A program made the translations under genes and the position numbers. The notes below the pieces were generated by a model. The model saw only the letters and a list, made by a program, of their open reading frames with translations. It did not search any database and had not been told where the DNA came from. DNA of 64,000 nt from an uncultured Halobacteriovorax sp. (GTDB taxonomy: Bacteria; Bdellovibrionota; Bacteriovoracia; Bacteriovoracales; Bacteriovoracaceae), in NCBI GenBank assembly GCA_913061265.1, contig CAJXVS010000001.1, positions 558,001-622,000 of the forward strand, given 5' to 3'. Positions 32,728 to 39,325 of this stretch are shown here, one piece after another (the first letter of the stretch is position 1; each line of letters begins with the position of its first letter).

Positions 32728-34398
32728 CTATAGGGTCTTTAGGAACATGATAAGTTCTTTCTTCTCTACCGGAGAGAACTTCTCTGATCCATCAGCATTT
32801 AAGAACATTCTTGAATGCCCCTTATTTGAAAGCCCTTTACGGCGCGTATCAAACTTAGCTTCTTTATCTTGATACCAAGATTCAGGAATATCTCGTCCTG
32901 TAGGATAACCCACGCATTCAGAGTCAAAATCAGTCTCAGGATCATCCGCTGGTCCTTGATAAAAGATCACGGTTCTCTCACTAGGTTTAGTCAGGACGTC
33001 ACATAAACTTGGGGCTGAGTTATTATGAAAATAAGGGTAGCGTGACCATACTCCAACAAGTGGTGGCGGGACATATCCTTTTTGCGGAACAACCTTTGTC
33101 TCCATCCATTTTGAAATAGCTAAACGGTTTAGATCTTCAGAGAAATGCTTCATCCCTTGCCATCTTAAAGGATCAGTTCCTACGTCTTTTACTTTTGTTT
33201 TCTTGGCGTACTTAACTTTAGTCGTCTTAAGTTTTTCTTCTAAAGTTAACTCTTCTGCATTTGGAAGATCCCAAGCTTTTTCATAACCACCATGGCATTT
33301 AACACAGGAAGTTTTAAAATGCGCCTGCCCTCTTTTGGCAGCTTCAAGATCTAATGAATCAGCTGGAAAGAAGTCCGTCCATCTAGGGGCTTCAATTGAG
33401 AAGACCGCTGCCGTTAATTCTTTAATGATCTTAGAGTTATTCTTCATCCATTTTTCTAAGTCTTTTAGATCTGTTCCTCTTCCGATTTCATTCCATAAGA
33501 AATTGGTAAGGATAGGATTTCCACTCACGATAGAGCCATCTCTTAACCAACGGGTCTTATACTTAAGATTCCACCAAACCCCTGGTTTTGAATCTGCCGG
33601 CGTATGAGAGAGAGCGTTAGGACGAGGTCTTTTTTGAAGCTTTTTATTATGAGTGGCGTATTCATCTTGATTTCTTTTTGAAAGAGAAAGAGCCACCTGA
33701 GCGAGAGAAGTATCAAGCCCTAAGACTAGGGGCGAGACAGCGCCTATGGCCATTAGGTTCTTTTGAAAGCTTCGGTACATCTTCATCTCGCCTTTAGTGG
33801 CGCCAGTTCCTAGTTTAAAGATAGTAGCAGGAACCTTAGGAGCGTACTTTTGCCCCATAAGAAAGAAGTCATTTGCTTTAGTTCTTTTATTAGAAAGCCC
33901 TAAGACAGTTTTTCCAAAGAGCTGAGTTGAATGGCAAGCGGTGCAACCAAAGGTTAGCCCCTTGGCCCCGTGACGTTCAATAAAAGTCACGCCCATAGGA
34001 AAGTCTGGCTTATCTTCTGTTGGGTATGGAATCTTAAAGACACCTGTGGCATCTTCTTCATTATAAGGACTAAGCCCTACCCAGTTGTACATATCATCCA
34101 TAGAAGTAAAACCAAGAACCTTTTGTCCTAATTTATAAAGCCATCTTTTAATGGGGTTCTTACTATCTGCTTCAATAGCTCGCCTTGAAGCTTCGTAAGG
34201 AAGAAGAACTCCTGTGATAGAGACGGGATAACTACTGGTATGAATCTTACCTTGATGAATAACTTCTTTATGCTCGTCCCCTACTAACTCATAAATATTT
34301 CCGCGGTGACCGACTTCAGGAAGACGGGCATTTTCAGACCAATCTGGGGTCTCAGCGAATAGGGAGATTGAATAAAAAATAATGAGAAACTTGATCAT
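32728..34398 (-). CDS. Secreted two-haem c-type cytochrome (RoxA-like)
   Basis: Signal peptide, then two CxxCH haem sites: CTACH near residue 152 and CVKCH near residue 365. The C-terminal part has YVPPPLVGVWSRYPYFHNNSAPSLCDVL, close to the phrase found in RoxA/RoxB rubber oxygenases and related di-haem proteins. Length about 556 is shorter than RoxA. The start is at 34398 (AGGA upstream), just after the end of the previous gene; a longer frame starts at 34467. Function: electron transfer or peroxidase/dioxygenase in the periplasm. Real rubber cleavage is not implied. Confidence 0.8.
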   Translation of the reverse strand: MIKFLIIFYSISLFAETPDWSENARLPEVGHRGNIYELVGDEHKEVIHQGKIHTSSYPVSITGVLLPYEASRRAIEADSKNPIKRWLYKLGQKVLGFTSMDDMYNWVGLSPYNEEDATGVFKIPYPTEDKPDFPMGVTFIERHGAKGLTFGCTACHSTQLFGKTVLGLSNKRTKANDFFLMGQKYAPKVPATIFKLGTGATKGEMKMYRSFQKNLMAIGAVSPLVLGLDTSLAQVALSLSKRNQDEYATHNKKLQKRPRPNALSHTPADSKPGVWWNLKYKTRWLRDGSIVSGNPILTNFLWNEIGRGTDLKDLEKWMKNNSKIIKELTAAVFSIEAPRWTDFFPADSLDLEAAKRGQAHFKTSCVKCHGGYEKAWDLPNAEELTLEEKLKTTKVKYAKKTKVKDVGTDPLRWQGMKHFSEDLNRLAISKWMETKVVPQKGYVPPPLVGVWSRYPYFHNNSAPSLCDVLTKPSERTVIFYQGPADDPETDFDSECVGYPTGRDIPESWYQDKEAKFDTRRKGLSNKGHSRMFLNADGSEKFSPVEKKELIMFLKTL

Positions 34399-34420
34399 GC
34401 CTGACATCCTGCCAAATAAC

Positions 34421-35809
34421 CTATTGGTTAATACTAGTTCTTCTTGAGAAGTAATAGATCTGATCAAATATTATTCTATTTAAACTGAAAATACCAACCG
34501 CCTTAATCAAAGCGGCCCTAGGGTTCATCGCTCCCATACAGAGGGTGTTATAAATGTATAAAGAAACAAAGGTGTCTTTAGGAAGAAGCAGAGCTCCATA
34601 GGCTGCATGAAAGGTGAAGCGATCTGATCCGACATTGCCCGTCGCAATAAGATCACCTTTTTGCTCATCATACATCTGCGAGACAATCGAAGTTAAAAGA
34701 AGGTTTTGAATCTCATCATCTTCTAGGTCTTCAGTTGTTAAAGCGTCCCAATTAATTGTGTTACCACTAATAGCTTCAGTAATATTTCCGTCGCCCTTGT
34801 CTTCTATAGCAACACCGCTTTCTTTTAAATTCTTCACCTTTTCAATAAAACTCTCTTTAAATTTTTGATAAAGGTTCTTTTGGTCCATAAACTGGCGGAG
34901 CTTTTCAATCTCGGCCCTGCGGTTAGGATCTTTCATTATGTTCTCTAGCCTCTCTTTAGCATCATCATTAGAGATGCCAAAAAGTGATCCGTAAGCAAAC
35001 ATATCGACAAGCCCTGTTCCTCGGCTAAAAAAGTATTTCTTAAGAGCTAAGGCCACGGGCGAATTTTCAGGATTAGAGACTATCTTTGAGGACACAAGAC
35101 CAACAAGAACTCCTGCCGTTAACTCATAACCTAAACGCCCAATCCACTTTGCGTCGATATCTCTGTCATAGTTTTGATAAGTATAGGCGCCTATTGAAGA
35201 GGCCAGACCAATACCAATAGTGAACTTCTTAAAGGTATTCCCTGCGGCTTTTCTCTCAGGAGTCCATTTCGTTGAGCGGCAGCCATAGGCCAAGCGCTCA
35301 TACTTTTGCATATAGATATCCATCTCTTTAGAGACCTTAACTTTAACTTCTTTACTTGAGAGACCAGGGTTTTCTTCAATGATCTTCTTAGTTAACTTCT
35401 TTCCTTCATTAGATTCTTCTTTAACAATAAGTTTTTGAATCTTCCTATGCCTCTTCATTAAAGATGAAGAGTACTCAGGGTTTGAGATCTCACTGAGCTC
35501 ATCAACAAACTTAAGCCTATTTTTATCGCGGATAATATCTAGGAAATGAAGAAATGAAGTGAATTCTTTCTTGCTTGGCTTTTTCTCTAAAGTAGCTAGT
35601 TTTTTTTCTAAGGCCTTAAGAGTTTCTTCTTTGAGTTCTAACTTAGAAGCTTCTTTCATGGCCCATGAATCAAAACCACTTGGCTTAGATTGAACTTGCC
35701 CGGCTTTAAGAAAACCGCCCATTAGTTCTACACAAGAACTAGCATAGGCCTTTGGCATATTGACCCATAGAACCATGACGATAATGAACCTAGTCATAAC
35801 TGCTAACAT
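34421..35809 (-). CDS. Secreted or membrane protein of unknown function
   Basis: 462 residues with a signal peptide (TRFIIVMVLWVNMPKAYASS), a helical lysine/glutamate-rich first half, two short hydrophobic patches (FTIGIGLASSIGAYTY; LTAGVLVGLVSSKIV) and a final region with AAYGALLLPKDTFVSLYIYN. No catalytic motif or named family recognised. AAGGGG before the ATG at 35809 supports the start. It lies 22 bases before the two-haem protein on the same strand, so the pair plus the BASS transporter form one transcript. Confidence 0.7.
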   Translation of the reverse strand: MLAVMTRFIIVMVLWVNMPKAYASSCVELMGGFLKAGQVQSKPSGFDSWAMKEASKLELKEETLKALEKKLATLEKKPSKKEFTSFLHFLDIIRDKNRLKFVDELSEISNPEYSSSLMKRHRKIQKLIVKEESNEGKKLTKKIIEENPGLSSKEVKVKVSKEMDIYMQKYERLAYGCRSTKWTPERKAAGNTFKKFTIGIGLASSIGAYTYQNYDRDIDAKWIGRLGYELTAGVLVGLVSSKIVSNPENSPVALALKKYFFSRGTGLVDMFAYGSLFGISNDDAKERLENIMKDPNRRAEIEKLRQFMDQKNLYQKFKESFIEKVKNLKESGVAIEDKGDGNITEAISGNTINWDALTTEDLEDDEIQNLLLTSIVSQMYDEQKGDLIATGNVGSDRFTFHAAYGALLLPKDTFVSLYIYNTLCMGAMNPRAALIKAVGIFSLNRIIFDQIYYFSRRTSINQ

Positions 35810-36060: not shown

Positions 36061-36612
36061 ATGAAAACACTCACACTCTTAATGACACTTTTTACAATGA
36101 ACTCTCTTTACGCTGCCGGGGCTAAGGGGAACCTTCAAATATCCCCTCTTTATGGCTTTGAGAGAGTGCAAAAACTCTCCCCTGAAGTTAGGACAAAGAA
36201 TAGAACCTTTGTCGGCGTCAGGTTAGTTTATGGTCCCCCGCTTTTATCTTTTGAATCAGAGGTCACAAGAAGTAACGATACTGAAGAGCTTCCAGCAAGA
36301 AGCCTGGTTGAAGATGAAGAATCATACGCCGCAAAAGTAGGCCTAAGATCAAGTTTTAACCTTGTTCTTTTCCGTTGGTACGTTAGGGCCGGAGGACACG
36401 CTAGAAAAAGCACTTACTCGAGAGTAGAAAATGGAGTTAGCTCTACTAGAGAGCCCGCCATTAATATTAGTCCTTATGCAGGAACTGGTTTTAAGTTTAA
36501 TCTTGCTTCAAACTTTTTCGTAAGCGGCGGGGTGACGGCCATCTTTACAGGAAAACCAAGAGGTAGTGATAGAGACTATCAAACCACCTTTGCTTTTGGC
36601 ATGAGGCTATAG
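36061..36612 (+). CDS. Small outer-membrane beta-barrel protein
   Basis: 183 residues with a signal peptide (MKTLTLLMTLFTMNSLYAAG) and eight or so alternating amphipathic strands (TFVGVRLVYG, YAAKVGLRSSFNLVLFRWYVRAGGHA, FFVSGGVTAIFTG, TTFAFGMRL), an OmpW/OmpA-like size. No closer family. It converges on the next gene, overlapping by 6 bases at the stop. Confidence 0.7.
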   Translation: MKTLTLLMTLFTMNSLYAAGAKGNLQISPLYGFERVQKLSPEVRTKNRTFVGVRLVYGPPLLSFESEVTRSNDTEELPARSLVEDEESYAAKVGLRSSFNLVLFRWYVRAGGHARKSTYSRVENGVSSTREPAINISPYAGTGFKFNLASNFFVSGGVTAIFTGKPRGSDRDYQTTFAFGMRL

Positions 36613-37137
36613 GCTTAAGTACTTACTAAAGCCTTCTCTCTCAGCGATCTCGATAAAGACTTCTTCAAAGTTCTCCTTATCTTTTGCATAATAATGCTGA
36701 AGTTCAGAAGAAATATTAATCGCTCCTAATAAAAGATCAACCTTAATAAACTCAGTCCCTGTTGCCCTTCCAAAATTAAAGATCGCCCAGTTCGGACAGT
36801 CATCTTGGTAGGCCTTATAATCAAATTTTAAATTGGTATAACTTAGAAAGGCAGAGAAGCCTCCCCCTTTCGCCCACTGAAGGACTTGTCTAAGCTCTTC
36901 TTCCGTATGAGGGGGTATATACTCACCTTCTTCCTCTTCAGTAGAGGAGCCGGTTGTATTATAGAGATGAAAACCTTTCGCCATCTTAAACAGATAAGCG
37001 TCGTCTTTTCCTTTTGCCTCTAATTTTAAAAGAAGATTCATCTGATGAGTCTTTAAATCAAACTGAGAAAAGTCGACCTTAGCAAAAGCAGATTTAAAGA
37101 TTAAAAGTGCAAGTAAAGCGATTAGACAATGTTTCAC
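36607..37137 (-). CDS. Secreted protein of unknown function
   Basis: GTG start at 37137 with GGGAG upstream; signal peptide KHCLIALLALLIFKSAFA. 176 residues, with a segment YQDDCPNWAIFNFGRATGTEFIKVDLLLGA. No motif recognised. Confidence 0.65.
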   Translation of the reverse strand: MKHCLIALLALLIFKSAFAKVDFSQFDLKTHQMNLLLKLEAKGKDDAYLFKMAKGFHLYNTTGSSTEEEEGEYIPPHTEEELRQVLQWAKGGGFSAFLSYTNLKFDYKAYQDDCPNWAIFNFGRATGTEFIKVDLLLGAINISSELQHYYAKDKENFEEVFIEIAEREGFSKYLSL

Positions 37138-37250: not shown

Positions 37251-38987
37251 TTAGATTTTGTAGTCGTCACAAGCCTTGAGGTCATCTGACTTCTTTAGTT
37301 TCGCCTTACAGCTTAGGAATGAGTACCCTCTTGCAAAAGAGAGGTACTGCTTAATCTTTTTTGATCTTTTCTCGGCTTTAGCTTTATGACAGCCGATGGT
37401 CTCTGCCGTACAGGACTCTGTCTCTTTTTTATAGTTTGCATTGAAGAATTTAAGAGCCTTTTTCTGAGCTTCAGTTCCTGTGCTTGCCATCTTTTTTAAA
37501 CAGCTGTTCACTGTGCTTGTTAATATATCATAAGTAGAACCCGCTCTAGAGCCTAGCCCGTATTTGGCTCCACGTTTATGGAGGCTAATCTTCAGATTGC
37601 CTTTAATTCTTTTTGTTTGAAAGATAGTTTGTTCACGCCTTAAACGGAAGAGATCTTTTACATCAATGAGAATTTTTTTAGAATTAAACCCTGAGGCGCA
37701 AGCTCTGGCTTTTCGAGAAATTTGATCTTCCTCTTCAGACTTTAACTCATCACTAGGAGGATCATAAACTGCTCTACATAAAGTAAGTGCCATTTTTTTA
37801 GCAGCATCGGTGGTTGAGTAAAGATGAGAACTTCTCGCCTTTCCAGGTGATAAAGAACAGCCCTTCTCTTTCATAATATCGGGATGCCCCATTAACTTTG
37901 ATTCTTCCATTGCTAAAGGAGCCATTTTGTCGATTTCGTTTTTATCTTCTTCTATTAACTCATCTAATTTTTGACTAAGCTCACTTGAATCTGGAACTTT
38001 TGATTTATCAACACCAGCAACCGTTGCTAATACCTCTTTATCAACCTCTCCATCAAAGCGAAGCCTAGTTACTACCTTTCGAACAGTTTCAATTTCAGCA
38101 TCTCTTGTAATGTTTAACATCGGAACATATTCCTGACAGATGGGATTGATTTTTTTTGAGGTTTCTTTAGTGTATGATCCATAATTCACTTGATTCTGAT
38201 CACCGCAGCCTGAGATTTGGTTAGTATCATTATAAACTTTCTGAAGAATTGTCTTTCCTTCTTTATAATCAATATTTACTAACTTCACCTCTTGATTTAC
38301 AAGCATATCTAAATGAAGATCACTCATACTTGAACCTTTCTTTTCTTTCATTTTATCAAAAGTATCATGAATAAAATCAGCACCCGCCGAGTTAAAAGCA
38401 CTTGTAGACGTCATCACACAACCAAGCCCCTTAAATACAGAAGTTGAGGCCCCGCTTTTACAAGAGTGATCGAAAATTGCTAGTTTTGGAAACTCACAAC
38501 CAGGATCCCTCCCTTTTTGCTTCTTTAAAATATTCGCAAACTCATCTGCATATATTCTTCGTTTACTATAGGAACCATCTGATGATTTTTTTACGCCATT
38601 AACAGAATGACGAGGAATAGATTTTTTAGTCTTCGGGTCTTTCCCGTTTCTAGAACCATGAGCGACAAAATTAATCATTAGTTGTCTTGGTCTTTCACTA
38701 CATGGCTTTGAATAAACCATCCCTAACCTTTTCTGAACACCTTCCAAAGTAAAAGGTTTTGTATAACTCTTTGTGGCCTTGCCAAATTCTTTGGCCTTTG
38801 TATCATCGCCAAAAAAGCTACTAACTTTATAACCACTTTCAATCAAAGCTTTACGAGCATGAATATTTTGTTCTTTAACAAATTGAGCTCCACCCTCGTG
38901 ATCAGCTCCCATGGTTATGGCCAACTTCTCTTGAGCAAAAACTCCAAATGAAAAAAGAGAGAATATGGTTATGAATATTATTTGCAA
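37251..38987 (-). CDS. Secreted caspase-like (clan CD) cysteine peptidase candidate
   Basis: Signal peptide (IIFITIFSLFSFGVFA). Then a hydrophobic strand ending in a catalytic-type His-Gly (LMINFVAHGSRNG, H110) and, 66 residues on, a strand ending in a catalytic-type Cys (LAIFDHSCKSGAS, C176). This is the diagnostic two-block pattern of clan CD peptidases (caspases, legumains, gingipains). Roughly 300 further residues are helical, lysine-rich, with several cysteines. TTG start at 38987 with GAGG upstream. It overlaps the end of the upstream small secreted protein by 10 bases. Substrate specificity not readable. Confidence 0.7.
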   Translation of the reverse strand: MQIIFITIFSLFSFGVFAQEKLAITMGADHEGGAQFVKEQNIHARKALIESGYKVSSFFGDDTKAKEFGKATKSYTKPFTLEGVQKRLGMVYSKPCSERPRQLMINFVAHGSRNGKDPKTKKSIPRHSVNGVKKSSDGSYSKRRIYADEFANILKKQKGRDPGCEFPKLAIFDHSCKSGASTSVFKGLGCVMTSTSAFNSAGADFIHDTFDKMKEKKGSSMSDLHLDMLVNQEVKLVNIDYKEGKTILQKVYNDTNQISGCGDQNQVNYGSYTKETSKKINPICQEYVPMLNITRDAEIETVRKVVTRLRFDGEVDKEVLATVAGVDKSKVPDSSELSQKLDELIEEDKNEIDKMAPLAMEESKLMGHPDIMKEKGCSLSPGKARSSHLYSTTDAAKKMALTLCRAVYDPPSDELKSEEEDQISRKARACASGFNSKKILIDVKDLFRLRREQTIFQTKRIKGNLKISLHKRGAKYGLGSRAGSTYDILTSTVNSCLKKMASTGTEAQKKALKFFNANYKKETESCTAETIGCHKAKAEKRSKKIKQYLSFARGYSFLSCKAKLKKSDDLKACDDYKI

Positions 38988-39325
38988 GATGCTGCCTCTT
39001 TTAGTTCCATGCCAGCCTTCTTAATTGCGCCGAATTGCTGAATAGGGGTTTTAAGGGCCCGCCCTTTAAAACCATCTTTAAGCTTTAAAAGCTCTATCTC
39101 TACTTTAATATAATAACCACTAAAGTAAGAAAGGTTCTTTCCATTAGATGCAAGTTCTATCACTAATTTCGATAACTTAGACTCTCCAACTAGGAGCTGG
39201 CATACATCAACCTTGTGGCAATAAATCTTGGCAAACGCTTGATATTTCCCGCACTTTAAGGGCCTTTGATCACTATCAAAAGCCAAGAGCGAAGTGGAAT
39301 AGAGAAGTAAAAACAGTAGCTTCAT
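38978..39325 (-). CDS. Small secreted protein, partner of the caspase-like gene
   Basis: Signal peptide (MKLLFLLLYSTSLLAFD) and about 95 mature residues with four cysteines (LKCGKY, IYCHKVDVCQ, ASCK), probably disulfide-bonded. The start is placed at MKLLF; an upstream frame from 39352 is less likely. Overlap of 10 bases with the peptidase suggests a coupled pair, for instance a propeptide-like inhibitor or cofactor, but this is a guess. Confidence 0.6.
   Translation of the reverse strand: MKLLFLLLYSTSLLAFDSDQRPLKCGKYQAFAKIYCHKVDVCQLLVGESKLSKLVIELASNGKNLSYFSGYYIKVEIELLKLKDGFKGRALKTPIQQFGAIKKAGMELKEAASCK

Follow-up and report, generated by a model that had tools for sequence, protein, structure and literature searches.

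A pair of overlapping genes in the window, the 64,000-nucleotide stretch of uncultured Halobacteriovorax sp. DNA that was analyzed, encodes what is almost certainly a peptidase of clan CD and, immediately upstream of it, a small protein that is very probably its functional partner. We read the pair as a two-gene module in which a secreted peptidase is accompanied by a cognate, co-exported partner that would act as its inhibitor or safety catch, and we consider this reading, taken whole, to be evenly poised between right and wrong. The main addition to the preliminary description of this locus concerns the small partner, which belongs to a real, conserved, phylum-wide family that is unnamed in the libraries searched. 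Predatory bacteria have to carry digestive or lytic proteases and release them without damage to themselves, by means that are poorly understood. The pair provides a concrete phylum-wide candidate, in the form of secreted peptidases of the caspase/legumain type that are almost always accompanied by a small partner. If the partner does inhibit the enzyme, then it would represent a clan CD inhibitor of a new kind.

The two genes are encoded on the minus strand, a detail that the preliminary description did not give. Its account of the gene layout agrees with what we find: the reading frame of the peptidase comprises 578 residues, and its TTG start falls within the end of the upstream small gene (Table 1). 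The resulting 10-nt overlap suggests translational coupling. Two other Halobacteriovorax genomes have the identical TTG start and 10-nt overlap, with GGAG or GAGG before the start. By inspection, the N-terminus of the peptidase (LQIIFITIFSLFSFGVFAQ) is signal-peptide-like, as had been proposed. The N-terminus of the small protein has the same character, and this feature together with its four Cys residues fits the earlier view of a small secreted protein of the disulfide type. These sequences suggest that both proteins are exported. The aligned relatives of the peptidase likewise begin with signal-peptide-like stretches, a result that leans toward hydrophobic starts because hydrophobicity was used to choose them. 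Promoter and terminator scans at the locus gave results near the shuffled expectation, and we draw no support from them.

Table 1. Features of the peptidase–partner locus, in window coordinates. Fractions give conservation in the 82-protein alignment.
Feature	Position	Strand	Details
Peptidase ORF	37251–38987	−	578 aa, TTG start; predicted exported clan CD (caspase/legumain-like) cysteine peptidase
Small partner, predicted exported	38978–39325	−	115 aa, ATG start, four Cys
Gene overlap	38978–38987	−	10 nt, TTGCAAATAA; peptidase start inside partner end
AGAGG, ribosome-binding-like	38995–38999	−	Precedes TTG start; from sequence
Putative signal peptide of peptidase	38931–38987	−	Residues 1–19, cleavage near VFA-Q; by inspection
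His110 codon	38658–38660	−	Predicted catalytic His, HG motif; 82/82, invariant
Cys176 codon	38460–38462	−	Predicted catalytic Cys, DHSCKSG; 82/82, invariant
Cys190 codon	38418–38420	−	Non-catalytic, start of strand after catalytic loop; 82/82
Cys284 codon	38136–38138	−	Conserved, non-catalytic; 78/82
C-terminal tail CDDYKI	37254–37271	−	Includes Cys573 (codon 37271–37269), 82/82

The two-strand pattern ending in HG and in Cys, on which the preliminary description had based its assignment, is present as described, with H110 located within INFVAHGSRN and C176 within LAIFDHSCKSG. The alignment used to assess these residues contains 82 relatives that are mostly only 12–19% identical to the window protein, and because both residues are invariant at such low identity, we do not attribute them to chance. 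D173 and G111 are each found in 81 of the 82 proteins, and residue 175 is always S or T.

Some distant relatives score above the cut-offs of known families. One (L012) scores above the cut-off of PF00656, the model for family C14 (25.6 versus 21.4), and two others (L110 and L108) score above that of PF01650, the model for family C13 (32.2 and 25.5 versus 22.8), as do two proteins encountered as neighbors of the partner (L147 and L141). In all, PF01650 is matched by 8 of the 82 relatives at E ≤ 0.01. The window protein itself matches neither PF01650 nor PF00656, nor does it reach any other Pfam cut-off, and the Pfam model for C25 (gingipain) was matched by no member scanned, the window protein included. 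Profile–profile comparison of three C13 proteins from the phylum with the peptidase family yielded a match (probability 94.7, E = 6.3e-8) in which HG is placed on HG and catalytic Cys on catalytic Cys. The window's own three-sequence profile gave no significant match to the C13 profile (probability 1.8), and a comparison of profile A2 with profile A1 was uninformative because sequences are common to both. Single-protein searches with the window proteins against Pfam, NCBIfam, PHROGs, PADLOC, PDB sequences, plasmids, and Rfam returned nothing useful, and a scan of viral contigs found no relatives. When the peptidase family profile was compared with PDB sequences, the matches were mostly to coiled coils and involved the helical part of the protein. 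Two further matches, to a metacaspase (6w8s, E = 0.72) and to GSU0716 (3bij, E = 0.2), fell short of a usable level.

Structure prediction had been proposed in the preliminary description as a check on the caspase fold. The AlphaFold2 model of the enzyme was made from three sequences only and is of low confidence (pLDDT 44.8), although several ten-residue blocks of residues 81–170 reach pLDDT 71–84. The best PDB match to this low-confidence model is caspase-1 p20 (probability 0.97, E = 0.047). Predicted strands stop just before H110 and C176, which corresponds to the clan CD arrangement wherein the His follows strand 3 and the Cys follows strand 4. The predicted α/β catalytic domain covers about residues 20–250, and beyond it lies a variable, predicted helical part that closes with a short conserved tail and its invariant Cys. 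The first β-strand of the low-confidence model spans residues 21–26. Because the putative signal cleavage site lies about three residues before this strand, there appears to be no space for an N-terminal propeptide, and therefore something else must silence the enzyme.

The relatives above the C13 and C14 cut-offs, the profile match, and the predicted topology thus uphold the earlier placement in clan CD, and we conclude that the enzyme is nearest to family C13 within that clan. Like legumain and the bacterial C13 enzymes, whose HG and Cys motifs align with those of the window family, it has a large region C-terminal to the catalytic domain. However, besides the failure of the window protein to reach the PF01650 cut-off, the family differs in having a conserved C-terminal Cys tail and an obligatory small partner, neither of which we found described for C13 in the literature searched. 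Resemblance to C14 (caspases, metacaspases, and orthocaspases) is seen in the relative above the PF00656 cut-off and in the caspase-1 fold match, and the HG...xSCxSG pattern of the window family resembles the metacaspase motif DSCHSG. Metacaspases carry an acidic S1 residue, an Asp located two residues before the catalytic Cys, whereas the Asp of the window family is located three before it (DxSC), and position 174 is occupied by F, L, G, M, A, H, and other residues among the 82 relatives. The signal-peptide-like start is a further difference from C14. Of the secreted caspase-fold enzymes to which the protein had been compared, the general class stands, but the enzyme is closer to C13 and C14 than to the gingipains: these are also exported clan CD enzymes, but the window family shows no C25 match in the members scanned and appears to have no space for an N-terminal propeptide.

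Of the 369 phylum genomes covered by whole-genome searches, 77 contain relatives of the enzyme, as do 38 of the 129 genomes of the family; beyond the phylum, the scope was one exact-pattern genome scan. The window's own genome has a single enzyme match, which adjoins a single partner match. According to an HMM built from the upstream small protein, the partner adjoins 83 of 93 near-complete enzymes, or 87 if four diverged versions recognized by eye are counted, and about six have no visible partner. The partner is upstream of the enzyme in 37 of these 83 cases and downstream in 46, with gaps mostly between −28 and +20 nt, the commonest being −4 and −10. Gene order has switched at least eight times on the enzyme tree, with five switches forced by strongly supported branches, although this count is approximate because the tree is quick and its branches are long. 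Throughout these five to eight or more switches, the pair was not separated.

A search that began with the partner yielded 111 places in 74 of the 369 phylum genomes. Twenty-seven of these places, which had no known enzyme or a weak one, were fetched, and 24 of them adjoin an HG...C clan-CD-like protein; of the remaining three, one is at a contig edge and two have no HG...C neighbor. The partner is useful as a marker in this respect, as searching with it uncovered diverged clan CD proteins that had been missed or scored weakly by the enzyme profile. The distance matrices of enzymes and partners are correlated (r = 0.74), and none of 1000 within-genome shuffles of partner paralogues reached this value (maximum 0.57). 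Note that the joint duplication of neighboring genes gives co-divergence anyway, and therefore the correlation demonstrates that the pairing is stable and not that the two proteins are in contact. The view that the two proteins are real partners, as first suggested from the window alone, is strongly supported by adjacency in both gene orders, by the partner-first searches, and by this co-divergence.

The partner family is absent from Pfam and NCBIfam, and none of the family libraries searched contains the enzyme–partner pairing. The partner has no Pfam or PDB sequence match and shows no similarity to known inhibitors that we could detect, and no description of it was found in the literature searched, which covered few subscription journals. 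Among the four Cys residues of the window's partner are C25 and C114, the pair that is family-wide. Both Cys are absent together in three diverged partners (L104, L114, and L141), which favors a disulfide inside the partner, and the protein is probably β-rich and disulfide-closed. In the low-confidence partner model (pLDDT 46.9), likewise made from three sequences, the strands are ordered β-β-β-α-β, an order that would suggest an OB-like fold. A fold search with this model gave no significant match, and the weak ones include OB-type folds, potempin A among them.

Several secreted bacterial cysteine proteases are known to have small β-sheet inhibitors that are encoded upstream or downstream and co-transcribed; partners of the staphostatin, Bfi, and Bti type are predicted to be β-rich, comprise 116–138 residues, and have genes on either side of the protease gene (PMC3462683). 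A small co-expressed protein silences, or is thought to silence, the enzyme in the case of staphopains, SpeB, the C10 proteases of Bacteroides, and KLIKK proteases (PMC3462683, PMC7296668), and each KLIKK protease gene of Tannerella forsythia adjoins the gene for a small exported inhibitor, or potempin (PMC7296668). The locus described here has the form of such a protease–inhibitor gene pair, in that a small, apparently exported protein is encoded beside a cysteine protease and is coupled with it. However, staphopains and the C10 enzymes have the papain fold (C47 and C10) and not that of clan CD, no sequence similarity was found between the window partner and staphostatin, Bfi, or Bti, and the potempins are lipoproteins that have no established homology to the window partner. 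The KLIKK enzymes are not known to be members of clan CD.

Because the gene arrangement closely fits the solution of a small co-expressed inhibitor, we favor an inhibitor, followed by a chaperone or subunit and then by a substrate. If the two proteins are indeed partners, then we lean slightly toward inhibition as the role of the smaller one. Under this proposal, the first gene would yield a small exported protein that is co-translated with the enzyme, and the second would yield a Sec-exported clan CD cysteine endopeptidase with a His110–Cys176 dyad. The partner would bind the enzyme in the periplasm of the predator itself and hold it silent, perhaps serving as a folding helper as well, and the enzyme would be freed of this restraint after its release from the cell, in prey for instance, or once the complex is dismantled. 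The preliminary description had suggested that the enzyme could act on prey or on the predator's own envelope, and either target may apply. The sequences themselves show the conservation, the motif, the profile homology, the adjacency in both orders, and the co-divergence, whereas enzymatic activity, location, inhibition, and biological target are inferred.

A possible, though rather unlikely, alternative is that the partner serves as a dedicated chaperone or as a permanent subunit, on which the peptidase depends for its folding, stability, or secretion, with any latency coming from the C-terminal region or tail of the enzyme. This would be consistent with the apparent export of both proteins and with their nearly obligatory pairing, and the long C-terminal part of the enzyme with its invariant end offers a candidate for the silencing element, given that in legumain the C-terminal domain stabilizes the enzyme and is able to silence it alone (PMC4357240). 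A folding role has been suggested for staphostatin also (PMC3462683). However, the C-terminal part of the enzyme is poorly conserved apart from its end, and rough NG86 estimates of dN/dS are 0.3–0.42 for the partner versus 0.13 for the enzyme, for which dS is near saturation. By these estimates the partner evolves faster than the enzyme, which gives no hint of an obligate and intimate subunit, although such a subunit might still evolve in this way.

We think it improbable that the partner is a substrate or activating ligand that is cut at a fixed site, with the pair forming a signaling or effector cassette. Strict gene pairing also occurs for protease–substrate pairs, and semi-conserved PDPL and APYxD motifs are present in the partner family, but both motifs are missing from the window's own partner and from those of its congeners. 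Moreover, Cys residues conserved at both ends of the partner suggest one stable, disulfide-closed domain, and their joint loss from diverged partners is as expected for an internal disulfide. Predators need secreted proteases, and gene overlap by itself is common in bacteria, so the locus might be thought to hold an ordinary digestive peptidase with an unrelated overlapping neighbor. This reading is contradicted by the adjacency statistics and can be given very little credence: the pairing holds over many families of the phylum in both orders, the partner-first search finds the enzyme, and in the window genus the wider neighborhood is not conserved, with a weak methyltransferase-like match being the only other nearby feature common to the congeners.

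In addition to possible control by an inhibitory partner, the enzyme has conserved Cys residues that might regulate it. Four core Cys residues are kept by nearly all members, namely the catalytic one, two in the fold, and one near the C-terminus, and these are retained even in the diverged proteins L132, L133, and L135. In 87 of 92 enzymes, the final Cys lies exactly six residues from the C-terminus and the tail that it opens conforms to C-x-x-[FIY]-x-[LFI] (typically CxxFxL). Exactly four Cys residues follow residue 30 in 40 of the 92 enzymes and an even number does so in 71, although these are not independent events because the four-Cys core is inherited. In an exported enzyme whose catalytic thiol is free and whose other Cys residues are all disulfide-bonded, the count should be odd. 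Even counts thus leave one thiol to be accounted for, and therefore a disulfide between the catalytic and tail Cys residues is possible, as are two free thiols or a homodimer. A redox latch of this kind, in which a disulfide between the leftover and catalytic Cys residues would lock the enzyme when oxidized and free it when reduced, seems doubtful to us. If present, it would be unlocked in a reducing compartment such as the prey cytoplasm, and the partner would add a second safeguard. We also considered, and rejected, a mixed disulfide joining the tail Cys of the enzyme to the partner: partners L104 and L114 are without both Cys residues, and the adjoining enzymes retain theirs.

Several other observations were made at these loci. 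A second, diverged set of exported proteins (L132, L133, L135, L136, L137, L139–L149, and L151) carries HG...HCFxGG-type motifs, adjoins the partner, and deserves a separate family model. Within one genus, many pairs (L008, L009, L011, L013, L024, L025, and L034) are directly downstream of a gene that, as judged by eye, is fructose-bisphosphate-aldolase-like. Tandem pairs in the order enzyme–partner–partner–enzyme occur at L020 and L089 (G108:C498), and such an arrangement is a possible intermediate for changes in gene order. At L155 (G112:C22) and at G089:C31, the enzyme copy beside a partner is disrupted by in-frame stops or frameshifts, which suggests turnover of paralogues. Downstream of the pair in the window are genes for a small outer-membrane-barrel-like protein (36061–36612, plus strand; weak PF13505 match) and for a signal-peptide-like protein of 176 residues that has no matches (36607–37137, minus strand); counterparts of these two proteins were not found near the pair in two congeners. 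The window also encodes a 579-residue protein (32728–34467, minus strand) with a RoxA-like cytochrome c domain (PF21419, 42.8 bits), which is related to dihaem enzymes of the rubber-oxygenase type.
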